Positions 5,421 to 17,157 of a DNA stretch of 23,035 nt are shown piece by piece. Each line of letters opens with the position of its first letter. The first letter of the stretch is position 1. Position numbers and translations under genes: made by a program. Origin of the DNA: a virus; the IMG/VR virus record IMGVR_UViG_3300042731_002130, positions 1 to 23,035 of that record; one strand, 5' to 3'. The notes under the pieces are model-generated. The model made no database searches, was not told the DNA's origin, and saw only the letters and a program-made list of their open reading frames with translations.

Positions 5421-6542
5421 TTAAGGTATATCGAAAGGGCTGCCCGCTCCACCACCCCCAAAGCTACCCCCAGCAAACCCACCGTTACCTGTACCCGTAG
5501 AACTATTCATAGAAAAGTTAGGGTAAAATTGGGGTTCTTGGGGCATTGCTACTCTAGTATTATCGGGTTCTAATATAATAGGGGGTATAGCTATAGGTTC
5601 GGTTTCAGGGTTAGGTGTATCATAAATTTGGGGTGGAGCATCAACTATAGGTTCTTCTACGGATCCTTGTTTTACGTTTTCTATACCAGGTAGTATAAAG
5701 GGTGCTTTACTAACATCAAACTCTCTATTTTCAGGTGCAAAGTCATGAATTGGTTGGAATTGACAACTTACATCTAAAACATGAGGATGTTGAGTTACAC
5801 CAGGTTCTAATTTTATTTCCCATGGATAAGCTTTAGACCATTTTAGATTTATTCCTGTAAAGAAACCAGGAATGTCATTTACCCACTCTCCTATAGTGAT
5901 TCTATTAAACTTACCGCGCATTCTTCTTTTATTGCCTGAGTATTCAGGAGCGGTTTGTGCTACTAAGTAGTTAAGTTTTTGGTAAAGAGGAATAATTTCT
6001 TGTCTTGATTGTGCAGCTATTTTAAAATTAAAATTAATTTTTCTGTCAAATTCATTGTAAGTCCAAAATTTCTCAGCTCTACCATTATATTTGTATGAAT
6101 TCCACCCCCCAGTATAATCGTCACCTAAATCTTCTAATAAAGCCCTAAATAGTAGTACTCTTGTATCTTCGGGGTCAATGGGGTTAATCACGGAAATTTT
6201 AAATTTAATTAAATCTTTATATTCAAACCCGTCATAGTTTAATTCCCCTTTAGCACCTGGTTCTATAATAGGGAAAAGATTTATAGAATCTTGAGCTGGC
6301 TTATTACGTAAAGTGTAATCTATATTTCCTTCTCCACTTATATCTACGTTTCCTGCTTGAGATATACCAATACGGTTATTAATATGTTGGTTAGGGGTAG
6401 AAAAATTTTTTGTATTACTATCAGCAAGTGTTTCATAGCTAACTTTATCCCCTAGCCCATCATACTTTTCATGGATAGCATGGTTTGAACTACGTACTTT
6501 ATTCCTAAAGTCTTCTTCGTTATATTTTTTTAAAAGTCCCAT
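5421..6542 (-). CDS. Tail-tube initiator / baseplate structural protein candidate
   Basis: 373 aa, starting MGLLKKYNEEDFRNKV. The ATG overlaps the tape-measure stop by one base (TAATG). The N-terminal ~80 residues are polar and probably extended. The middle (about 105-275) is a mixed beta region (FKISVINPIDPEDTRVLLFR; YNEFDRKINFNFKIAAQSR; WSKAYPWEIKLEPGV; DVSCQFQPIHDF) that resembles tube-like proteins linking tube and baseplate. The C terminus is Pro- and Gly-rich and ends in a Gly-rich low-complexity tail (GGSFGGGGAGSPF). Genes between tape measure and hub in contractile tails commonly encode the tube initiator (T4 gp48/gp54 role), so I propose that role. I do not see a decisive family motif, so the structural assignment is firmer than the specific one. 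Confidence 0.65.
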   Translation of the reverse strand: MGLLKKYNEEDFRNKVRSSNHAIHEKYDGLGDKVSYETLADSNTKNFSTPNQHINNRIGISQAGNVDISGEGNIDYTLRNKPAQDSINLFPIIEPGAKGELNYDGFEYKDLIKFKISVINPIDPEDTRVLLFRALLEDLGDDYTGGWNSYKYNGRAEKFWTYNEFDRKINFNFKIAAQSRQEIIPLYQKLNYLVAQTAPEYSGNKRRMRGKFNRITIGEWVNDIPGFFTGINLKWSKAYPWEIKLEPGVTQHPHVLDVSCQFQPIHDFAPENREFDVSKAPFILPGIENVKQGSVEEPIVDAPPQIYDTPNPETEPIAIPPIILEPDNTRVAMPQEPQFYPNFSMNSSTGTGNGGFAGGSFGGGGAGSPFDIP

Positions 6543-9500
6543 TAAGCAAAGTTATCTGAAGGTAATCTTCTTATAGTATTAATATCTCCTTTTTGACCTG
6601 AAGCATTAAAGTTATCATTAACGACTTTAACTTTACCTTGTCCTTCTTTTAATGCTGCTACCATAGGTGGTACTAAAGCATTTACAGTAGCGGTAACAGT
6701 TTCAGCAATTAATGGCTGTAGGTTGTCAATAAATACCTGAGAACTGTCGTTTTCTTTATTTTCGTCAGGTGTTGTTTGTGGGGCTTCTATAGAAGCATCA
6801 GTTTCTGGAGATTTGGCTCTGAATAGATTAACTTTTTCTTCTTTAAGTCCGGGACCTCCAGTAACTGATATCTCAGCACCTAAGATTTTTTCACCTATTT
6901 CTTTAGATTCTATAAATCCAGTAAAATCAGTGATTTTACTACTTGCAACTACAAGTGCATTTACTATTTCAAGAGATTTATCCGAAAATAATTCTGTTTT
7001 TATATCTTGTTGCCCATCCCTCATATCGACTAATGCTGCTTGGGCTTTCATAATATCTAATGTATCTAAATTTGTAGAGCGATTTTTCTTTTCGAATTCT
7101 AATTCACCTATAGCAGTATTAATTTGGTCTGTAGTAAGGGTTAATACACGTTCTAATGTAGATACATTAGTGGTTTCTGGTTCTGGTGTTGCAACGGAAA
7201 TACCTGGTACTATTTCTGTAGGGGGTTCTAAATTAACAGGTGTAACTTCTGTTATAGCAGTACCTGGGGCTAATTGAGTAGGAGAAGTAGTTGTAGGTAA
7301 TATATTAGCAGTAACTGTGGTTAATTTTTCTAAATTAGTAGCAGCATTAGAAGTTGCTGTAGAAAGATTTTCAGTATTTATAGTTAGTGTTTCTTGTGTT
7401 GTTGTAGGAGAATCAGCAGTATTAACAGTATTTATGTTGATGTTGCCTTCAAAATTAGATAGTGTTTCTAGTGCTGATGCGTCTATTGTGTTTAAAGAGG
7501 TGGCTAATAAAGCAATACTAGTTGCCATCCCTTTTATAGCAGTGTTAGCTAAATCTAATTTAGGGGCCATTTCTGCTATAGGTCCTAAGGCTTTACCTAA
7601 AATAAGTAACCCAACTGATGCTATAGCAATTGGTCCTATAGAAGCTCCAAAGAATGTTAATCCTAAAGCTAATATAGGTAAGGCTTGCCCTAATCCTAAT
7701 AATTGACTAGGGTCTAATTCTTTAATAGCATCATTAAAGGTTTGAATTCCTGGAGAAGCTATTGCTAATATTTTACTAATAGGGATTAAAGCAAAACTTA
7801 ATGCTGTTAATGCGGCTGCCCCTATTATAATTGCTGGTCCTACTAATGATAAACCGGCAGCAGTAGCTCCTAATATACCTAAAGCTGCTGCAAATCCTAA
7901 CATAGCTGTTGGATCTAGTCCTTCAAGCATACTAAAGGCGGCTGCTGCTGGGATAATTGCTAATCCTACAGCTGCTATACCCACTGCTCCTGCTAACATA
8001 AATGGGGCTATATTGCCTAATAAGGCAGCAACCCCACCTAATAATGTTAAAGCACCTACAAATCCTAACATAGCCCCCACATCGATTCCTTCTAATAAAC
8101 TAAATGCTAATGCTGCAGGTATAATAGCAGCACCGACGGCAGCTAATCCTAAAGCACCCATTAACACCTGAGGTAATAGATTACCAAGTAATGCAGCTGC
8201 ACCTCCTAATACTCCTAATGCTATACTAAAACCTATCATAGAACTAACATCTACACCTTTAAGTAAACTAAAGGCAGCAGCTGCAGCAGCTATAGGAACT
8301 GATAAAGCAGTTAATGCTAAAGATCCTTTAAGCATGCGGACTAAATTATCACCAAAGAAACCAATACCTCTACCTACTGCTTTAAGCCCTTTTTCAGCTA
8401 AGTTACCAACAGCACCTATTATAGCAATACCAGGTGATGCAATTGCAAGAGCTAATATACCAGGAGCTACTGCTAATAATCCTAATCCACCAAGTAAAGT
8501 TTCACCCTTACTAAACTCAGCTACTCCTTCTGATATACTTGCCATAGATTCTTTTATGGCTTCTGAATTGAGGCCCTCTATATTTTTTAGCCCTAATGAG
8601 CTAGCTCCTAATAGCAACAAGCCAGGTGCAGCTAATGTTAATCCTATAGCACCACCTACTACTGTCATAGAAGCAAATTCACCTACACCATCAGCTAAAC
8701 TGCTCATGGCTTCCTTAGTAGTTTCGGCTCCTATTCCTGCTAAGTTTTTAAGTCCTCCTACAGACATTGAAAGTAAAACTAAACCAGGGGATGCTAATAT
8801 TAATCCCATTGAACCTAAAACTACTCTTACGGTGCCAAATTTTTCAACTCCTTCAGCTATGCCTTTCATAGCTTCTTGAAGAGCTTCACCTTTAACTTCT
8901 CCTAATTTGTTTAAACCATCAGCAGCTTTACTTAAAATAAATAAACCAGGAGATGCAATTGTTAATGCTAAAGCACCCTTTACAACTTCCATACTAGCAA
9001 AAGATTTAAGGCCTTCAGCTATGTTTTTCATTTTTTCTTTAAGCATAGAACCATCATCGGCTACTACTGGGATATCAGCAATATCATCTGTTCCCTCAGC
9101 TAAATTAGGAACAGGTGAAGGTATAAGTTCAGTACCTGGCTTAAATACACCTGCAGCATTAGCTGTTTCTTCGCTTACTAATCTACCAGTAGTCATATCA
9201 CGGAATCTACCTCCGCCAGCCATTCTTGGATCGAATTCTATGCCAGCGGCTTGGTCTTGCACACCTGTAAATCCTGATTTGATTTTATCAAATACTCCCT
9301 TAATTCCTTCACCACCGCTACTAAGACCACTTACTAAATTTTTACCTAAATCCCCTGCTTTAGAAACTAATCCCCCTATCCCTTTTCCTAAATCTCCTAT
9401 TTTAGTTACTATACCCCCTACAGAAGCAGATATACCAGAGAAATTAAGGGCAACAAGACCAGCTGCTATAACTTTTAATATATTAGGTACTTTAGTTAAG

Positions 9501-11911
9501 AGTGTAGTAAGCATCTTAACTGGGGTTAATATAAAGTTTAAAGCTGCAGCTACAGGACCTATAATTACTGAAGCTACGTCTACTAAAGCATCTAATAATT
9601 CACCAACAGGACCACCCAATAATTCTCCAAATAATCTTTGGAGTTTCATAACGGCATCATTAAATTTATCTTGTGCGCTTCTTTGCTCTTGTATTTTAAC
9701 AACTGCTTCAGCCATTGATATATCTTGACTATCTGCCAATTGTTTAGCAGCTGTTAACTGTTCATCCGTTAAGTCTTTAGCACCGGCAATACCTTTATTG
9801 ATTGCTTCCTGTCTGATTAAGACACCACTTAATTGGTCAACATTCATACCAAGTGATTCTGCAAGTTTCTGTCTTTGTAAGACATTCATACTTTCAAATT
9901 CACTAATAGTACCAACTTGACTTGCTATTTCTTTAGCTAATGTAGCTTGGTCACCTGCTAACGCGGCTGCCCTAGCTCGTTCGAGATTTAGTTGTTTACC
10001 TGTGAGTAACTCAGCTTCTAATTCAGACTCAATACTCCCCTGGAAGTCAAGGAGTTTGCTAGATATAGCGTTTAAATCGCCTAATTCTATGCCTAATTTT
10101 TTAACCTCAGCTAATGTTTTACCAATAGCTTCAGGTTGTCTGCCAAATAGAATTAACTGCTCATTAGTTAGGTTAGCAGTATCTTCCATTATCTCTTTCA
10201 TATTAACAGTAATACCCAACGTTTTAGCTTGTTGGGCGGCTGCTAATGCAGATTTGCCTGCAAATTCAGTAGCGCTTTCACCTGTTGAAGCACTTGCTAA
10301 AGTTAATTTAGCGGCTTGCTGGGCAGATAAACCTATTTTTTCAGTTAATCTTGTAAAATTAACAAGGGTAGCGTCACTAAACATTACCCCTAAACTTAAC
10401 TCTTTATTTAATTCACTTTGTGATTTTAATAGTCTTTCAGTATTGATGGCTGTATCCATCGTATTAGCCGAAATGCTAGTAAATTCGTTTCGTATTTTAG
10501 TAGCTTGTGTTTCTGTTACGCCTAAGTTTTTAGATATATCAGTAACTTCGGAGTTAAATTGTAAACCTTTAGTAACTAAAAAGGTAAATATAGTAGCTGG
10601 GTCAGTAAGAGCGTTTTTAAGGTTACCTAAACTTTTATTAAGCAACTCAGTCATTATCTGAGTTCGTGTAGTTAATTGAACATTTGTAGCGGCTTCCTCG
10701 TTATTTTCCTTACTTTTTATAAGGCGTTCTTTTGTAACTTTTAAAACTTCAATTTGATCAGCATTTCCTACAGGATCACTTTCTAAATCCCTAATTTGTT
10801 TTTCTACTTCTAGTATAGCTTCTTTATCTGCTTTTGCTTGGTCTGCAAATCTTTTTTGTTCAACATAAGCCTCTCTGGCTAGATTTTTTACATGTTCTAT
10901 ATCTTCAGACTTAAAGATAGCACTAAATCCTGGAATTTTACTAAAGCCATCCATTATAGCTCCTGTTAGTCCCATACGTCTATTTAGTTCTTCTTCTCTT
11001 GCTATTGAATCATCTATGGCTTTTTGTAGATTTTGAAAATGGGTTCTTCCATCTACAAGTTCATTGTTAAATTCTATAGCAGCTATTATACGTTGTCTGT
11101 CTTGTTCTGAAAGATTATCATTAACCCTTGTATATTCTTTAAGGGATTCTATTTCTTGTTCTGTTAATTTTTTTCCTTGTCTTGCTTTATCTAAAGAGAT
11201 ATCAACAATAGACATTTTTTGTTGTTCTGCCTGCTTTAGCCTTATCTGTTCTTCATATTGTTTAGCTACAACTTCAAGAGATTCAGCTTCTGCTATTTTA
11301 CCCTCCATTCTGAGGTCTAAAGCTTCTTGTTCTAGATTTGCTTTTTGCTGTCTAAGGTTAATAAGTTGATGTCCGTTTCTTGCCAGATCGTTACTTACAT
11401 CTAATGCCGCTAAAGCTTGGGCACCTTCTAAAGCTTGTGCTTCTAAACGTTTTTCCTGAACATTTAAAATGTCTCTTTGGTTATCCATGTACTTAACACT
11501 TCGTACATAAGATAAGTCAGCATCATCTGCTATAGAATTACTTACTGAGCGGATTTTTCTAAATGACCCTAATATTCTGTTGGATAAATCACTTTGGTTA
11601 GTGATAGCTTCTATGACTTCGTTTAATCTAGCTACTATTGATTCTATTTCCCCACCGTAATCTCGGGAAGATGAAACAGTGGCTTCAATTTCACCATTAA
11701 GGGAATTTTGAAATCCTTTTAGGCGTTCAGTACTATTTCCTATAGTTTCTATAAAATCTTTATAGGCTCTTATTTTAACTTCTCTTATATCATCAGATAC
11801 ACCCTGTTCTTTAAGAGATTCGTTTAGTTCCTCTATTAGGTTATTAATACTCTGCCTTAGTTTTTCTTCTTCACTAAGGTTTTCTTGATTATCTTCTGGG
11901 TTTTCAGCCAT
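6542..11911 (-). CDS. Tail tape measure protein
   Basis: 1789 aa, the longest gene here. The first ~430 residues are charged and coiled-coil rich, with many Glu, Lys and Gln heptads. Residues about 430-760 hold a conserved-looking helical block (SKNLGVTETQATKIRNEFTS, GESATEFAGKSALAAAQQAK). From ~770 onward long Ala/Gly/Leu/Ile-rich hydrophobic helices dominate, as in tape measures that insert into or span the host envelope. Residues 961-1176 contain 54-residue repeats and 1214-1381 contain 56-residue repeats. The region from about 1490 to 1790 is polar and Thr-rich. Length, composition and position after the tube and chaperone genes make the assignment secure. The protein sets tail length and is probably ejected with the DNA. 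T4 gp29 is 590 aa, so this ruler is about three times as long. It follows a strong terminator, so it needs its own promoter. Confidence 0.93.
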   Translation of the reverse strand: MAENPEDNQENLSEEEKLRQSINNLIEELNESLKEQGVSDDIREVKIRAYKDFIETIGNSTERLKGFQNSLNGEIEATVSSSRDYGGEIESIVARLNEVIEAITNQSDLSNRILGSFRKIRSVSNSIADDADLSYVRSVKYMDNQRDILNVQEKRLEAQALEGAQALAALDVSNDLARNGHQLINLRQQKANLEQEALDLRMEGKIAEAESLEVVAKQYEEQIRLKQAEQQKMSIVDISLDKARQGKKLTEQEIESLKEYTRVNDNLSEQDRQRIIAAIEFNNELVDGRTHFQNLQKAIDDSIAREEELNRRMGLTGAIMDGFSKIPGFSAIFKSEDIEHVKNLAREAYVEQKRFADQAKADKEAILEVEKQIRDLESDPVGNADQIEVLKVTKERLIKSKENNEEAATNVQLTTRTQIMTELLNKSLGNLKNALTDPATIFTFLVTKGLQFNSEVTDISKNLGVTETQATKIRNEFTSISANTMDTAINTERLLKSQSELNKELSLGVMFSDATLVNFTRLTEKIGLSAQQAAKLTLASASTGESATEFAGKSALAAAQQAKTLGITVNMKEIMEDTANLTNEQLILFGRQPEAIGKTLAEVKKLGIELGDLNAISSKLLDFQGSIESELEAELLTGKQLNLERARAAALAGDQATLAKEIASQVGTISEFESMNVLQRQKLAESLGMNVDQLSGVLIRQEAINKGIAGAKDLTDEQLTAAKQLADSQDISMAEAVVKIQEQRSAQDKFNDAVMKLQRLFGELLGGPVGELLDALVDVASVIIGPVAAALNFILTPVKMLTTLLTKVPNILKVIAAGLVALNFSGISASVGGIVTKIGDLGKGIGGLVSKAGDLGKNLVSGLSSGGEGIKGVFDKIKSGFTGVQDQAAGIEFDPRMAGGGRFRDMTTGRLVSEETANAAGVFKPGTELIPSPVPNLAEGTDDIADIPVVADDGSMLKEKMKNIAEGLKSFASMEVVKGALALTIASPGLFILSKAADGLNKLGEVKGEALQEAMKGIAEGVEKFGTVRVVLGSMGLILASPGLVLLSMSVGGLKNLAGIGAETTKEAMSSLADGVGEFASMTVVGGAIGLTLAAPGLLLLGASSLGLKNIEGLNSEAIKESMASISEGVAEFSKGETLLGGLGLLAVAPGILALAIASPGIAIIGAVGNLAEKGLKAVGRGIGFFGDNLVRMLKGSLALTALSVPIAAAAAAFSLLKGVDVSSMIGFSIALGVLGGAAALLGNLLPQVLMGALGLAAVGAAIIPAALAFSLLEGIDVGAMLGFVGALTLLGGVAALLGNIAPFMLAGAVGIAAVGLAIIPAAAAFSMLEGLDPTAMLGFAAALGILGATAAGLSLVGPAIIIGAAALTALSFALIPISKILAIASPGIQTFNDAIKELDPSQLLGLGQALPILALGLTFFGASIGPIAIASVGLLILGKALGPIAEMAPKLDLANTAIKGMATSIALLATSLNTIDASALETLSNFEGNININTVNTADSPTTTQETLTINTENLSTATSNAATNLEKLTTVTANILPTTTSPTQLAPGTAITEVTPVNLEPPTEIVPGISVATPEPETTNVSTLERVLTLTTDQINTAIGELEFEKKNRSTNLDTLDIMKAQAALVDMRDGQQDIKTELFSDKSLEIVNALVVASSKITDFTGFIESKEIGEKILGAEISVTGGPGLKEEKVNLFRAKSPETDASIEAPQTTPDENKENDSSQVFIDNLQPLIAETVTATVNALVPPMVAALKEGQGKVKVVNDNFNASGQKGDINTIRRLPSDNFA
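7769..8272 (-). repeat. Three 56-residue (168-nt) repeats in the tape measure
   Basis: Units start at the Phe codons at 8272, 8104 and 7936, exactly 168 nt apart, with no insertion or deletion. They begin FSLLKGVDVSSMIGF, FSLLEGIDVGAMLGF and FSMLEGLDPTAMLGF and continue through LG(G/A)xAA, a Pro-containing turn and a second hydrophobic helix ending AIIPAA in the first two units. A fourth, more degenerate unit may follow (LDPSQLLGLGQALPIL). They encode residues 1214-1381 of the tape measure and probably form repeated helical hairpins. Confidence 0.9.
8384..9031 (-). repeat. Four 54-residue (162-nt) repeats in the tape measure
   Basis: Units start at Met codons at 9031, 8869, 8707 and 8545, exactly 162 nt apart. 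They begin MKNIAEGLKSFASM, MKGIAEGVEKFGTV, MSSLADGVGEFASM and MASISEGVAEFSKG, followed in each by a hydrophobic helix and a conserved (S/A)PG turn (IASPGL, LASPGL, LAAPGL, VAPGI). The last unit loses register after the turn. They encode tape-measure residues 961-1176 and are distinct from the 56-residue family that follows. Confidence 0.9.
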
Positions 11912-11940: not shown

Positions 11941-11974
11941 AAAATATAAGGTGATGTTAATACACCACCTTATA
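11939..11974 (-). terminator. Strong rho-independent terminator before the tape measure
   Basis: In the minus-strand RNA a 9-bp stem (TATAAGGTG with CACCTTATA), one mismatch, three further pairs (TGT with ACA) and a 4-base loop are followed at once by six T residues (11944-11939). It starts three bases after the stop of the chaperone extension frame (11977). It would separate the chaperone transcript from the very long tape-measure transcript, or attenuate read-through. Confidence 0.85.
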
Positions 11975-11976
11975 AA

Positions 11977-12255
11977 TTATAATTCATTTTTTAATCCTGA
12001 GTCTCTAGGAATATTATCCCAATCTATATCGAAGTTTTCAAAGGTTTCCATTGCTTTTTCATCATTGGTTTTTCCTTTAGATGCGTCTTCTTGTTTTTTA
12101 TGAATATCACTAATTTTATTTATGTAATAGCGTCTCATATAAACTGGCATATTCCAAACTTGTTCGAACGTAAAACCTCCCTGTCCCCAATAAACGAGGT
12201 CGAATACCTCGTCAAGTATTACTGGTTTATACCTGGAGGTCAGGCCAAAAGAAGT
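11977..12255 (-). CDS. Chaperone extension frame, probably expressed by ribosomal frameshift
   Basis: This frame opens after an in-frame TGA (12258-12256) and runs to TAA at 11979-11977. It overlaps the 3' end of the gp26-family gene by 29 bases, in the +1 frame. It has no ATG, GTG or TTG before the most conserved-looking part, YWGQGGFTFEQVWNMPVYMR, which resembles the short C-terminal segments of phage tail chaperones and T4 gp26/gp51-like proteins ('GGF-(x)n-NMP-(x)2-RR'). The first ATG lies inside that motif and would remove half of it. If ribosomes slip at the TTTT at 12250-12247, the fusion has 253 residues of the chaperone plus 89 new residues ending in KNEL, 342 aa in all. The extension is rich in Lys, Asp and Glu after residue 45. 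The position between tail tube and tape measure is exactly where G/GT-type frameshift chaperones lie. A sequencing indel is the main alternative. Confidence 0.75.
   Translation of the reverse strand, partial: TSFGLTSRYKPVILDEVFDLVYWGQGGFTFEQVWNMPVYMRRYYINKISDIHKKQEDASKGKTNDEKAMETFENFDIDWDNIPRDSGLKNEL
12194..12212 (-). promoter_or_regulatory. Hairpin downstream of the putative frameshift site
   Basis: ACGAGGT (12194-12200) and ACCTCGT (12206-12212) form a perfect 7-bp, GC-containing stem with a 5-base loop, inside the coding extension. Its 5' edge is about 34 bases after the TTTT slip candidate. That is farther than the 5-9 bases usual for stimulatory structures, so a role in frameshifting is only possible. 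Confidence 0.35.
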
Positions 12256-13006
12256 TCACTCCGATGGGAATTTGGACGTCACTAACAACAGTGCCATCCT
12301 CACCTTCGAAGTTAAACGTAAGATCTACGTCGGGGGAAATTTCTTTAATATAATTTCTTAATGAACGAGAATCTCTAGCTAATAATTCATCATCTACAAA
12401 TTCTCTTATTTTATCATTATCAGTTTCACCATCTACTGATACTATTGTGTGCTTTAAACGTGTAGTTAATTCAGCTTCACGCTTCATTTTACGAAGATTT
12501 TTAAGTTCAAGCTGTATATTATCTTCATCTCCTTGGCTTAAAATTTTAAATGCAACTTTTTTACCTGAAAGTGGTAATTCATATTCAAATAAGTTAACTC
12601 CAGGTTGGGTTACTAGACTTTCATCTAATTCTTTATCATTTACTAATGATAAATCAACCATTACTTCTTCATCTTTACCTGTGCCAGGATTAGTGTAGTT
12701 AAACACATAATGGGGACCATACCCATAAACACGTGCAGCAATCATAATTGCATTTTTATCCCCAATTAAAATGTTTCTAAAATCAACAGGAGATACTACT
12801 AATGCTTCAAGTAGTTTATCAATTACTACACCAGATTTAATGTAGCTTTGGTTAGTAAGGATGTCTTCCTCTTTTGCGGTCATATATTTAACCTCAACTG
12901 TGCCATTTCTAAGAGGAGAATCTTCAGGATATAGAAGTCCTTTTGATGGTAGGCCTACCATTTCTGTTTGTAACTTTTTTTCAGCCATATTTATAACTTT
13001 TGTCAT
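12227..13006 (-). CDS. Tail/baseplate assembly chaperone (T4 gp26-family-like)
   Basis: 259 aa. After a short N terminus it shows VGLPSKGLLYPEDSPLRNG, then YMTAKEEDILTNQSYIKSG and VIDKLLEALVVSPVDFRNIL, the pattern of the T4 baseplate hub assembly protein family (gp26 type; T4 gp26 is about 208 aa). A middle beta region (YVFNYTNPGTGKDEEVMVDL) and a helical end (LKNLRKMKREAELTTRLKHT) follow, and it ends FFWPDLQV. It lies between the tail-tube gene and the tape measure, the place of tail assembly chaperones, and has an out-of-frame extension. I give the first ATG (13006); the ATG at 12988 (MAEKKLQ) is a real alternative that shortens it by six residues, and neither has a Shine-Dalgarno. It probably binds the tape measure before tube polymerisation and is not in the mature virion. 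Confidence 0.85.
   Translation of the reverse strand: MTKVINMAEKKLQTEMVGLPSKGLLYPEDSPLRNGTVEVKYMTAKEEDILTNQSYIKSGVVIDKLLEALVVSPVDFRNILIGDKNAIMIAARVYGYGPHYVFNYTNPGTGKDEEVMVDLSLVNDKELDESLVTQPGVNLFEYELPLSGKKVAFKILSQGDEDNIQLELKNLRKMKREAELTTRLKHTIVSVDGETDNDKIREFVDDELLARDSRSLRNYIKEISPDVDLTFNFEGEDGTVVSDVQIPIGVNFFWPDLQV
12232..12255 (-). promoter_or_regulatory. Window in which the chaperone frameshift must occur
   Basis: Zero-frame codons here read AAC TTC TTT TGG CCT GAC CTC CAG before the stop at 12229. The run TTTT lets a P-site tRNA-Phe move from TTT to TTT by +1, after which GGC CTG ACC is read in the extension frame. GGAG lies eight bases upstream of the TTT codon, the only purine-rich Shine-Dalgarno-like stretch I noticed in this region. 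A small CCTG/CAGG stem starts two bases after the slip run. These are plausible elements, not proof. Confidence 0.5.
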
Positions 13007-13031: not shown

Positions 13032-13063
13032 TAAATAAAAAGAAGCGCCAAAAGGCGCTTCTT
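13032..13063 (-). terminator. Strong rho-independent terminator after the tail-tube gene
   Basis: A perfect 10-bp stem (AAGAAGCGCC with GGCGCTTCTT; 13040-13049 and 13054-13063) with a 4-base loop ends, on the minus strand, in TTCTTTTTATTTATT. It starts 25 bases after the tube gene's stop. Tube and sheath transcripts, needed in high copy, would end here. Confidence 0.88.
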
Positions 13064-13087
13064 CTTTTAAAATATATTAATTGACAA

Positions 13088-13591
13088 TTAGTATCTTAAG
13101 ATGCAGTAGTCCATAGCAAGAGTTAAGTTGATAGTCTGGGCTGTATTAGCGTTTGACCAATCAGCGTCTGAGAAATCGACATTCTTGATAAATGTACCTT
13201 TGCACTCCCACTCTTCAACAACATCACCAACAGGACCTAAAGAACGGAATGAAACATCTTTCTTGTAGAAATCCTGGTAACCATCTCTACCAGTTACTGA
13301 TTCGTGGTGTAATCTGAACCAGTTCATTACGGCCTGAGCACCTGATGGGTTGATTGGGTCGTATAATTCGCATGTGATATCACCCCAATTAACTTTACCT
13401 TTTAACTTTCTTTTGAGGTTAATGTGATCGAGAACGATTTCTTCAAAAGATGGTTTTGGTCTGTCAGCTTTTTTAACTAAGTAAGCTGGAATAGCGTCTA
13501 TAGTAAAATAGAATCTATTTTTAGTTTTTGGTTCGTATGTTCTATAGAACATTCCGATATTGTCGGAGTCGGTATTTTGTAAAATTGCCAT
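13088..13591 (-). CDS. 19: Tail tube protein (T4 gp19-like)
   Basis: 167 aa, close to T4 gp19 (163 aa). It carries the T4-type tube pattern: an N-terminal segment PKTKNRFYFTIDAIPAYLVK, a strand-rich core (ITCELYDPINPSGAQAVMNW), the FRLHHESVTGRDGYQDFYKK segment, a LGPVGDVVEEWECKGTFIKN strand, and a terminal LTLAMDYCILRY. Hexameric rings of this protein stack inside the sheath to form the tail tube through which DNA passes. The ATG follows a highly A-rich leader (ACAATAAAATAAAATAAA) with no Shine-Dalgarno. It sits directly downstream of the two sheath genes, as in T4 (18-19), and a strong terminator follows it. No oddities in the frame. Confidence 0.93.
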   Translation of the reverse strand: MAILQNTDSDNIGMFYRTYEPKTKNRFYFTIDAIPAYLVKKADRPKPSFEEIVLDHINLKRKLKGKVNWGDITCELYDPINPSGAQAVMNWFRLHHESVTGRDGYQDFYKKDVSFRSLGPVGDVVEEWECKGTFIKNVDFSDADWSNANTAQTINLTLAMDYCILRY

Positions 13592-13617: not shown

Positions 13618-13634
13618 GTTGATACATATATTAG
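13618..13634 (-). promoter_or_regulatory. Candidate promoter/operator element before the tail-tube gene
   Basis: The minus strand reads CTAATATATGTATCAAC and overlaps the stop codon of the second sheath gene. It matches the ATATxxGTAT element found before other genes here and lies about 34 bases before the tube ATG. It could give the tube its own transcript. Confidence 0.35.
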
Positions 13635-15361
13635 TCTTCAAAAGAAGCTCCAGTAGGTGTAATAGTAAAGTCGAGGGCGATAAACTCGGCTGTTTTAGTG
13701 GGCTGAAGGAATACTTGACCAACTAATTTGTTTTGATCTATTACTTCAGGTGTGTTTAACTGGCCATCGATTTTGACTTGGAAGGCGTATAAACCTTGTC
13801 TAGATACTAAGTTTTCTAGGTATGGTGTGATTTGTCTCTTAAATCTATCGCGAGTAGCGTCGGTATTTTGCTCGAATACTATCTTTCTAGCAAACCCATT
13901 GATAGTATCTTTTACGTCAAGTAATAAACGTCTAACATTGACTCTATCGAGGGCACTGGCGGCCTGCTGTAAGGTTTTCTGACCAAATACTACAACACCT
14001 TGTCCTGGGAAAGTAGCGAGTGGATTAACTTTAGAGGTGTATAAATCGTCTCTTTGTGTTTTACTTAATTTAGTTTCAACTTTAGGAACATTTCTTAAAC
14101 CACCTCTAGTTAAACCAGCGGGGGCAAACCAAGGAGCGGCAATTGAGTCGTTTTTAGCAAATACACCAGGAATTATTGTAGAGGCAGGTGCCCATACATT
14201 TTTGCCTAATTCGGCACTTCTAACCTGAACCCAAGGCCAATATGAAGCAGCAAATGAACTATCAATTTCTTCTGCTTCAATTTTAGCATTAGCTACTGTT
14301 TCACCATAAGCAACCAAATCAGCTACATATAAGTTATCTCCACGTGTTTCAGTGTTAGAAATTGCAAGGTCTACTTGAGTACCGTGTAAATCATGAGTTA
14401 AACCAGGGGTAACTAAAGTTTTGAATTTAAATTCTTCTCTATTAGTTAGTATAGATAATGAAGCTGTATAATCGTTGGGGTGTAAACCCTGAATATTAGT
14501 TGCAGAAGATTGTGAACCATATATAGCGGCTACACTACCAAAATTATCACCTAAACCACCTACAAATGTACCTGATCCAGTTTGGGGTAATAATTTATTA
14601 TAAGCTATACCATCACTTGAACGAGTAGCAACACTACCATCAGCTGCTAAATAGCGGTATGTTGGGTTATTTACTGCTGATACTCTAACAAACTTAGATC
14701 TGTTAGGGAATTCACCATCTACAGTAACGCTAAATACACCACCACTTTCAGTTACAGTTTGGGATTGGTCACCTATGTTTTTAGCTATATAATTAGGTGA
14801 AAGTGGGTCTAAAGATACATTATTAAATTGTTCTAAAACAAGTGGTTTAGAATTTGTATCGTCGCCTCTTCTAATTAATACACTAAATGTACCTGCTTTT
14901 TCATTAACATTAGTAATTTCATACTTAAAGTTTGATTTAGTTCCTGTAGCGCTGTTTAAGTCACTACCCTTACCAAGAGCTGTAAGTACAAATGGGTTAT
15001 CATAGGTTGTTCCTCCATGATTTGATGAAGAAATAGCAGTTATATTTGATGAACTGGCATGAGCAAACCCAGAAGCGTCAGGGGCAACTCTAACTACTAA
15101 AGCACTAGAACCACCATTATCAAAGTAGTTTTTAACTGCTAAATTAGTGTATAATTCATATGCTTGAGAGCCGGATTTTATTACAGTACCAAAGGTAGTT
15201 TTAAAATCTTGATAATTGGTTATTAAAGTAGGTATTTCTAATGGACCTCTAGCGGTAGGACCTATTATGGCCATACCGGAGGGGTCAGTACCTGGTTGTA
15301 CATAGGTTCTGTCGATTTCTTGGAGTAATACTCCAGGAGATACTAATGTTTCTGTAGGCAT
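13631..15361 (-). CDS. 18: Tail sheath protein, copy 2 (T4 gp18-like)
   Basis: 576 aa (T4 gp18 is 659). It begins MPTETLVSPGVLLQEIDRTY, the standard sheath N terminus, which helps link neighbouring subunits. The middle (about 95-370) is variable and beta-rich, probably the exposed domain. The C-terminal third is the conserved sheath core (NPLATFPGQGVVVFGQKTL, RVNVRRLLLDVKDTINGFAR, EFIALDFTITPTGASFED). It contracts around the tube at infection. It is 20 bases downstream of a second sheath gene whose ends are nearly identical and whose middle has diverged. Two DNA blocks (44 and 57 bases) are identical between the copies, pointing to duplication with recent exchange. Start context is CAGAATAAAATG without Shine-Dalgarno. 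No promoter-like element separates the copies, so they are likely co-transcribed. Confidence 0.93.
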   Translation of the reverse strand: MPTETLVSPGVLLQEIDRTYVQPGTDPSGMAIIGPTARGPLEIPTLITNYQDFKTTFGTVIKSGSQAYELYTNLAVKNYFDNGGSSALVVRVAPDASGFAHASSSNITAISSSNHGGTTYDNPFVLTALGKGSDLNSATGTKSNFKYEITNVNEKAGTFSVLIRRGDDTNSKPLVLEQFNNVSLDPLSPNYIAKNIGDQSQTVTESGGVFSVTVDGEFPNRSKFVRVSAVNNPTYRYLAADGSVATRSSDGIAYNKLLPQTGSGTFVGGLGDNFGSVAAIYGSQSSATNIQGLHPNDYTASLSILTNREEFKFKTLVTPGLTHDLHGTQVDLAISNTETRGDNLYVADLVAYGETVANAKIEAEEIDSSFAASYWPWVQVRSAELGKNVWAPASTIIPGVFAKNDSIAAPWFAPAGLTRGGLRNVPKVETKLSKTQRDDLYTSKVNPLATFPGQGVVVFGQKTLQQAASALDRVNVRRLLLDVKDTINGFARKIVFEQNTDATRDRFKRQITPYLENLVSRQGLYAFQVKIDGQLNTPEVIDQNKLVGQVFLQPTKTAEFIALDFTITPTGASFED

Positions 15362-15381: not shown

Positions 15382-17157
15382 TTAGTCTGTGAAGCTGGCT
15401 CCAGTTGGGGTAATAGTAAAGTCGAGGGCGATAAACTCGGCTGTTTTAGTGGGTTGTAAAAATACTTGGCCAACCATTTTATTCTGGTCTATTACCTCGG
15501 CTGTATTTAATTGACCGTCGATTTTAACTTGGAAAGCGTATAAACCTTGTCTAGATACTAAGTTTTCTAAATAAGGAGTAACTTGTCTCTTAAATCTGTC
15601 ACGGGTAGCATCTGTGTTTTGTTCAAATACTATCTTTCTAGCAAATCCATTAATTGTGTCCTTAACATCAAGTAACAATCTACGAACATTGACTCTATCT
15701 AAAGCACTAGCTGCTTGTTGTAATGTTTTCTGACCGAATACTACAACGCCCTGTCCGGGGAAGGTAGCGAGTGGGTTAACTTTAGAAGCATAAAGTGTAT
15801 CACGCTGGGATTTGCTTAATTTAGTTTCAACTTTATTAATTTGTGTTCTACCTCTAGTTAAACCAGCGGGGGCAAACCAAGGAGCGGCAATTGAGTCGTT
15901 TTTAGCGTATACACCTGGGATAACAACTGAAGCAGGGCACCATACATTTCTGCCTAACGCTGTGCTTCTTACCTGTGCCCAAGGCCAGTATGAAGCACCA
16001 AATGAACTATCAATTTCTTCAGCTTCATTAGTTACTGTAGATAAAGTAGTAACACCGTATTTAACAGGGTCGACTATGAAGAAACTATCTCCACGAGTTT
16101 CAGTATTAGAAAGAATAGTATTAATAGTACTGCTGTGGTTTTCTTGGTTTAGTCCAGGAACAATTAGTGTTTTAAACTTAAATTCTTCCTTATTTTTCAT
16201 AATATTAATGGCATCAGTATAATCTGCTACTCTTAATCCTTGAATATTATTAGTAGCACTATCAGCACCCGCACCGGCAGCAGATCCATATTTAGCTCCT
16301 CCAGGTGTATTTGAAGGAATATTAGAACCGGCACCATTATAGAAAGCACCTGATTGTGCTGTAGGGAGAGAAGCTGAGTAGGAGGTTGAGGCTCCATCTG
16401 TTTGGACTACATTATTAATAGAATATTCGTAAGTAGGTAAATTTACTGCTGATATTCTAACAAATCTAGATCTATTGGGGAACTCACCTGTGATTTCAAT
16501 ACCATCAGCGGCTGAGTTTTTAGTAATTTTTTGATCACCTACAGCCTTAGCTATATAATTAGGTGAAAGAGGATCTAAGGATACATTGTTAAACTGTTCT
16601 AAGATAACAGGTTTAGAAGCTGAGTCATCGCCTCTTCTAATTAATAGACTAAATGTACCTGCTTTATTGTTTACACTAGTTATTTCCCATCTAAAGTTAT
16701 CTACAGATCCCGTTTTAAGAATGTTACCTGAAAATTCGTCAATAGCTCCAGTTAACGATGAAGCATTATTAAGAATTGCTCCTTTACCTATAGTTTCTAA
16801 AGTAAATGGTTGTGTGCCGTCTTTAGCAGAAGCTGAAATGTGGGTATTTGCTGCATAATCCCAAGTACCGGAAGCGGAAACTACTCTAACAACAACAGCA
16901 GAAGTACCACCATTAGCGAAATAGTTTTTAGTAGCTAAGCTAGTGAAATATTCATAGCCTTGGGAAGCTGATTCAAAAGTAATTCCAAATAAATCTTTAT
17001 ATTGTTGGAAATTAGTTACTAGGGTAGGTACTTCAATAGGGCCTTTTACAGCAGGACCGATTATAGCCATACCTGAAGGGTCGGTTCCAGGTTGGATATA
17101 GCTTCTATCAATTTCTTGAAGCAATACACCTGGTGATACTAGTGTTTCTGTTGCCAT
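15382..17157 (-). CDS. 18: Tail sheath protein, copy 1 (T4 gp18-like)
   Basis: 591 aa. The N terminus MATETLVSPGVLLQEIDRSY and C terminus EFIALDFTITPTGASFTD match the neighbouring copy almost residue for residue, as does the long core from about residue 450 onward. The central region (about 100-390) differs in sequence and length, with a Gly/Ser/Ala-rich insert (AVQ/GSAAGAGADSATNN region near 285-300). Both copies keep RRLLLDVKDTINGFARKIVF intact, so neither looks like a pseudogene. They could form mixed or alternative sheaths. The gene follows a GGGGACCC hairpin and a TATATTTGTATAC element, and has an A-rich leader (AAACAGAAAATAAAATGG). Confidence 0.93.
   Translation of the reverse strand: MATETLVSPGVLLQEIDRSYIQPGTDPSGMAIIGPAVKGPIEVPTLVTNFQQYKDLFGITFESASQGYEYFTSLATKNYFANGGTSAVVVRVVSASGTWDYAANTHISASAKDGTQPFTLETIGKGAILNNASSLTGAIDEFSGNILKTGSVDNFRWEITSVNNKAGTFSLLIRRGDDSASKPVILEQFNNVSLDPLSPNYIAKAVGDQKITKNSAADGIEITGEFPNRSRFVRISAVNLPTYEYSINNVVQTDGASTSYSASLPTAQSGAFYNGAGSNIPSNTPGGAKYGSAAGAGADSATNNIQGLRVADYTDAINIMKNKEEFKFKTLIVPGLNQENHSSTINTILSNTETRGDSFFIVDPVKYGVTTLSTVTNEAEEIDSSFGASYWPWAQVRSTALGRNVWCPASVVIPGVYAKNDSIAAPWFAPAGLTRGRTQINKVETKLSKSQRDTLYASKVNPLATFPGQGVVVFGQKTLQQAASALDRVNVRRLLLDVKDTINGFARKIVFEQNTDATRDRFKRQVTPYLENLVSRQGLYAFQVKIDGQLNTAEVIDQNKMVGQVFLQPTKTAEFIALDFTITPTGASFTD

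Follow-up and report, generated by a model that had tools for sequence, protein, structure and literature searches.

A probable +1 programmed frameshift in a gp26-family tail assembly chaperone gene

The stretch of viral DNA analysed here, hereafter the window (23,035 nucleotides; IMG/VR record IMGVR_UViG_3300042731_002130), very probably carries, in a tail assembly chaperone gene, a +1 programmed frameshift that is real and functional. We consider it highly probable that the gp26-family frame at 12227-13006 and the start-less frame behind it at 11977-12246 are a single chaperone gene, whose short and long forms would arise through a one-base forward slip of the ribosome. The first-pass annotation had suggested a pair like G and GT of lambda, in which the gp26-type protein is the short form; frame offset, slippery codon, dual coding, selection, gene position and homology to T4 gp51 together support that suggestion strongly. 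The anatomy, conservation, constraint and homology set out below are read directly from sequence.

The gp26-family gene and its start-less extension

The gp26-family gene, corresponding to the lambda gpG-like short form (TAC-N), lies on the minus strand at 12227-13006 and encodes 259 aa, ending in TAA at 12229-12227; its second ATG, at 12988 (MAEKKLQ), is an alternative start. The extension is, on the same strand, a stop-to-stop ORF at 11977-12255 of 92 codons, 89 of which lie past the proposed shift and make up the lambda T-like C-terminal part (TAC-C; minus strand, 11977-12246, from GGC at 12246 to 11980, with stop TAA at 11979-11977). As first described, the two ORFs overlap by 29 bases (12255-12227) with the extension in the +1 frame relative to gp26, and a scan of the extension frame for ATG, GTG and TTG found none in-frame ahead of its conserved part, YWGQGGFTFEQVWNMPVYMR; a TGA (12258-12256) shuts the frame just upstream. 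An open frame of 92 codons appeared by chance in 1 of 4000 shuffles of this stretch, and this result, with the persistence of the arrangement in relatives, indicates that the anomaly is neither error nor chance.

The genes run in the order sheath, tube, gp26, extension and long presumed tape measure, with two sheath genes upstream; the gene thus sits between tube and (presumed) tape measure genes, as a tail assembly chaperone should. The upstream neighbour (13088-13591, minus strand) is a tail tube gene of the gp19 type (phrog_4542 tail tube, 4.1e-26). The downstream neighbour (6542-11911, minus strand) encodes 1789 aa with hydrophobic repeats and is presumed from position and length to be the tape measure protein; its product matched no family profile, and the gene at the equivalent place in relatives is annotated as tail tape measure. 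Terminator-like hairpins on the minus strand, each with a 13-pair stem and a T tail, lie 3' of the tube gene (13037-13066) and in the gap that separates the extension's stop codon from the start of the tape measure gene (11945-11974), so that gp26 and its extension stand alone between two terminators. The sheath genes, at 13631-15361 and 15382-17157, are tandem paralogues whose C-terminal parts are nearly identical.

The gp26 protein scores 24.7 bits against PF12322 (T4_baseplate), just above the cut-off of 24.5, and matches phrog_150 (baseplate hub) at 3.4e-11. It was modelled apart from the extension, giving an AlphaFold model with pLDDT 93.6, whose best fold matches in the PDB, weak in score (Foldseek E 0.43), are the HK97 tail assembly chaperone 2ob9 (Foldseek probability 0.63; Z 4.7) and B. 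subtilis YqbN (3klu; Z 5.3). Searching the solved structures by sequence gave no relevant match.

The extension evolves as protein, under purifying selection: its dN/dS against four relatives is 0.05-0.14, versus more than 1.2 for the same DNA read in other frames. It is modelled as a helical domain (pLDDT 77). Its profile aligns with that of the cyanophage extension (hhalign 93.6%, E 2e-7), which aligns in turn with residues 200-252 of T4 gp51 (95.5%, E 1e-8); direct profile comparison of the extension with gp51 gave no significant match. On these profile comparisons the extension is homologous to the C-terminus of T4 gp51 by way of its cyanophage relatives. The N-terminal part of gp51 aligns with the cyanophage gp26 profile (hhalign 91%, E 1e-6), and direct HMM matches of the window's gp26 to T4 gp51 or gp26 were not significant. 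Members of the extension family match phrog_32580 (tail assembly chaperone) and phrog_634 (baseplate hub assembly catalyst). Against DUF6760 (PF20546) the window's extension reached 14.2 bits, under the curated cut-off of 27 bits; 12 of 38 extension members match this domain weakly, at best 2.8e-4.

The DUF6760 domain occurs in three bacterial contractile-tail loci with sheath and tube genes, L300 (G074:C54), L301 (G200:C61) and L302 (G267:C103), which come from a single-phylum set of genomes sampled around a Flavobacteriales MAG. In L301 and L302 it is fused to a gp26-like Zn-finger part within one reading frame; L300 has it as an ORF that lacks a start and lies in -1 across TCGGGGGAATCATAG, and this single locus is a candidate for -1 frameshifting in a bacterial contractile injection system.

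Conservation and constraint at the shift site

The window's gp26, used as query, recovered 80 viral contigs at 51-92% identity, and the further seeds Mel-JY01, huge phage LR756508 and SP-15 brought the total to 176 loci with a readable gp26 stop (SP-15 retrieved only itself from the viral contigs). Since some contigs were retrieved by two seeds, statistics are more safely drawn from the 84 nonredundant loci (<80% identity). The +1 frame is open past the gp26 stop in 169 of the 176 loci, five of the other seven being contig ends, and 174 loci, across the window, Mel-JY01, huge-phage and SP-15 seeds, have YTT with T as the next base as the gp26 codon ahead of the split, always at the same place. 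Two loci of the 176, L277 and L282, both inside the +1 clade, give the extension a start of its own, a private ATG just after the gp26 stop in another frame, and in L277 the slip codon is lost as well; a separate polypeptide can therefore suffice in some phages.

More distant loci, ten from GTDB genomes at 26-31% identity, are all +1, and nine carry TTTTTTTGGCC; they belong to phages in MAGs assigned to Woesearchaeota, WOR-3, Methylococcaceae, Halobacteriovorax, Flavobacteriales and others. Flavobacterium immuto, Microcystis Mel-JY01, SP-15, LIS04, GXN1 and LR756508 are likewise +1. In the GenBank records of the isolated phages immuto, Mel-JY01, SP-15, LIS04 and GXN1 the extension is either unannotated or entered as a small hypothetical protein; the +1 reading explains an ORF that databases drop or mislabel, and gives a great many uncultured tailed phages a correct gene model. 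Rhodothermus RM378, whose frame looks open in +1, was set aside as proof of this design because its extension fails the profile match. On a long branch within the +1 clade lies L088 (LR756511, a 595-kb phage), a gp26 relative whose extension is seemingly in -1, possibly a switch of direction. L288 and L289 are two copies of the tail locus with identical junctions near both ends of contig NHDW01000006.1 (305,838 bp, binned as Methylococcaceae), which probably represents a jumbo phage whose assembly kept an overlap of its ends.

In the window the shift site reads TTC TTT TGG CCT (12242-12253, minus strand), with the P-site TTT at 12250-12248, the skipped T at 12247 and GGC at 12246 as the next codon; the TTTT noted earlier is at 12250-12247. 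A start-less overlapping ORF in another frame, a slippery codon and retention of both in relatives, the hallmarks of a tail assembly chaperone gene, are all found here. Among relatives the slip site is TTT_TGG, or rarely CTT_TGG or CTT_TAC, the waiting codon being TGG in 80 of the 84 nonredundant loci and TAC in four. The codon after it is CCT in 83/84, versus 35% elsewhere in these genes (P 2e-36), and the next Asp codon is GAC in 58/59, versus a 21% background (P 2e-38)—a bias demanded by reading both frames, WPD in one and GLT in the other. A further T stands directly ahead of the T run in only 2 of the 84 loci, with about 45 expected, so that the run is capped at seven, perhaps through avoidance of transcriptional slippage.

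Signals around the slip site are less uniform. The GGAG that the first-pass annotation placed eight bases upstream of the TTTT is present (12259-12262, minus strand) and resembles a Shine-Dalgarno (SD) element; it is a possible stimulator, but its spacing is 8 nt against 3 nt in prfB, and some relatives have no Gly codon at this position. The Gly codon four codons upstream of the shift is GGG or GGA in 40 of 49 nonredundant loci, versus 41% expected (P 1e-8), a bias compatible with an SD-like stimulator; SD-like duplex energy here lies within the range that other parts of the gene show, so that it is the codon bias alone that stands out, and no SD element kept across the whole +1 clade was found. 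Just 3' of the site a stem-loop is predicted (12173-12241, minus strand; MFE about -27 to -29 kcal/mol, z -3.5), with the same fold in the four nearest relatives only (L001, L002, L003, L005); it is a possible stimulator in the window's close group. A 3' stimulatory RNA common to the clade was considered and rejected, the mean z being only -0.95 versus -0.44 in controls.

Proposed mechanism and competing explanations

Most ribosomes would stop at 12229 and release the 259-aa TAC-N. A fraction would stall while peptidyl-tRNA-Phe occupies UUU (12250-12248) and the A site presents the Trp codon UGG; the peptidyl-tRNA would then slip one base forward and re-pair on UUU, leaving GGC as the next codon, and continued reading in +1 would produce a long form of 342 aa (TAC-NC, ~38 kDa) with the junction ...NFF-GLTSRYKPVILDEVFDLVYWGQGGF... 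By analogy with lambda gpG/gpGT, TAC-N may coat the tape measure protein and the C-terminal domain of the long form may recruit tube subunits. The occurrence and efficiency of the shift, the re-pairing and the role as chaperone are what we infer; conservation, codon constraint, gp51 homology and the weak fold matches of gp26 to solved tail assembly chaperones together point to a G/GT-like (TAC-N/TAC-NC) pair. The site TTT_TGG, whose A-site codon is a sense codon and not a stop, is a compact and testable +1 site.

A -2 shift would lead to the same downstream frame with one extra Phe. Seven-T sites would allow it, and a -2 event has been noted at an apparent +1 site (PMC10885494), yet at the window's TTC TTT TGG, as at TTT CTT TAC, a -2 slip finds no re-pairing, whereas +1 re-pairs at all variants; we regard -2 as quite improbable. 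Rather less probable still is a separate small protein, made when ribosomes reinitiate past the gp26 stop or use a non-standard start such as ATA or CTG. The private ATGs of L277 and L282 speak for such a product, as do the ATG that cyanophage relatives (L106-L185) carry 5 bases past the gp26 stop in the extension frame (80/80) and the GenBank practice of entering such fragments as small hypothetical proteins; yet no start precedes the conserved domain in the window or its nearest relatives, start positions are scattered across the +1 clade with none conserved, and the frozen +1 codons CCT and GAC, upstream of the gp26 stop, would be left unexplained.

The same products could come from a mixed mRNA if RNA polymerase slipped on the T run, and most relatives do have seven T (TTTTTTTGG). 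The window, however, has four only, after C (TTCTTTTGG), and others read TTTCTTTGG or TTTCTTTAC; that short and interrupted runs share the same +1 design argues against polymerase slippage, as does the cap at seven, and we see very little chance that this is the source of the long form. As for a sequencing error or a decayed gene, suspicion attaches to the homopolymer run at the junction, but the same offset recurs in 169 viral-contig loci, in isolated phages and in MAGs, and the extension is under purifying selection, so that this explanation is scarcely conceivable. Ribosomal +1 frameshifting is the reading we retain.

Frameshift direction and known systems

The closest parallel for the slip itself is the prfB (RF2) site CUU_U, where a P-site YUU likewise re-pairs in +1 on UUU; the CTT_T variants share its very codon. 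The systems differ in that at prfB a UGA stop waits and the SD lies 3 nt upstream, whereas here the waiting codons are the sense codons UGG or UAC and the SD-like GGRG is about 8 nt away. Tests in the prfB context place UUU among the next most slippery codons (PMC10885494).

The lambda gpG/gpGT and P2 E/E+E' systems resemble the window in having a short and a long chaperone form, with the shift near the 3' end of a gene between tube and tape measure; their shift is -1, unlike the window's +1, and they belong to a different sequence family. Xu, Hendrix and Duda reportedly described in 2004 both these chaperone pairs and their production by a -1 shift.

T4 itself (Straboviridae) has a gp26-family short form, and the window's extension resembles gp51 200-252 through the cyanophage extension; in T4, genes 26 and 51 are separate and on opposite strands, whereas the window has a single locus with a putative frameshift. 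The abstract of Vladimirov, Gautam and Davidson, from 2022, is said to name genes 26 and 51 and to have frameshifting kept in several T4-like groups. Cyanophage and Rhizobium T4-like phages (Sf-FS3, RL38J1, IC12, phiAS5) share with the window an overlapping extension after gp26 and a poly-T junction, but their extension is in the -1 frame: 78 of 80 cyanophage loci are open in -1, the other two being incomplete at the locus, and the extensions of Rhizobium RL38J1 and IC12, Aeromonas phiAS5 and Cygsa01 are also -1. The window does not follow this -1 poly-T design of T4-like TAC-N; its extension, like that of its clade, is in +1. In the cyanophage-type relatives the -1 junction coexists with the ATG 5 bases after the stop, so that these phages may produce the gp51-like piece in a fused as well as a free form.

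Frameshift signals described for T4-like phages are poly-T and -1 (PMC12846349). The chaperone of phage Adele (Vandenendeviridae/Andersonviridae), like the window's, has a start-less extension reached by a poly-T shift, although the shift is -1 at GTTTTT (PMC12846349), and some T4-like phages have a short gene plus a longer fused gene in place of a frameshift (PRFect). The first-pass annotation was aware of no earlier account of frameshifting in gp26-family chaperones; in principle there is one, since Vladimirov et al. 2022, as cited in PMC12846349 and PMC10885494, assigned T4-like chaperones and reported frameshifting in some groups. What looks new, as far as the sequences and these citations go, is the +1 direction across one whole clade comprising the window, SP-15, marine, MAG and Flavobacterium phages.

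The gp26 tree separates the -1 phages, with T4 gp26/gp51, from the +1 loci by a 100/100 branch; branches are long and the deepest order is unsure. We give about even chances to the broader proposition that the gp26 family is split by direction into one deep YUU_U +1 clade (window, Flavobacterium, Microcystis, SP-15, Listeria LIS04, MAG and marine phages), a mode not known to have been described for the family, and a T4/cyanophage/Rhizobium clade that uses -1, a private start or two genes, with the same DUF6760-like C-terminal domain reaching into bacterial contractile injection systems. Homologous chaperones that arrive at the long form by +1, by -1, by a private start or from two genes offer a natural experiment on the evolution of frameshift direction.
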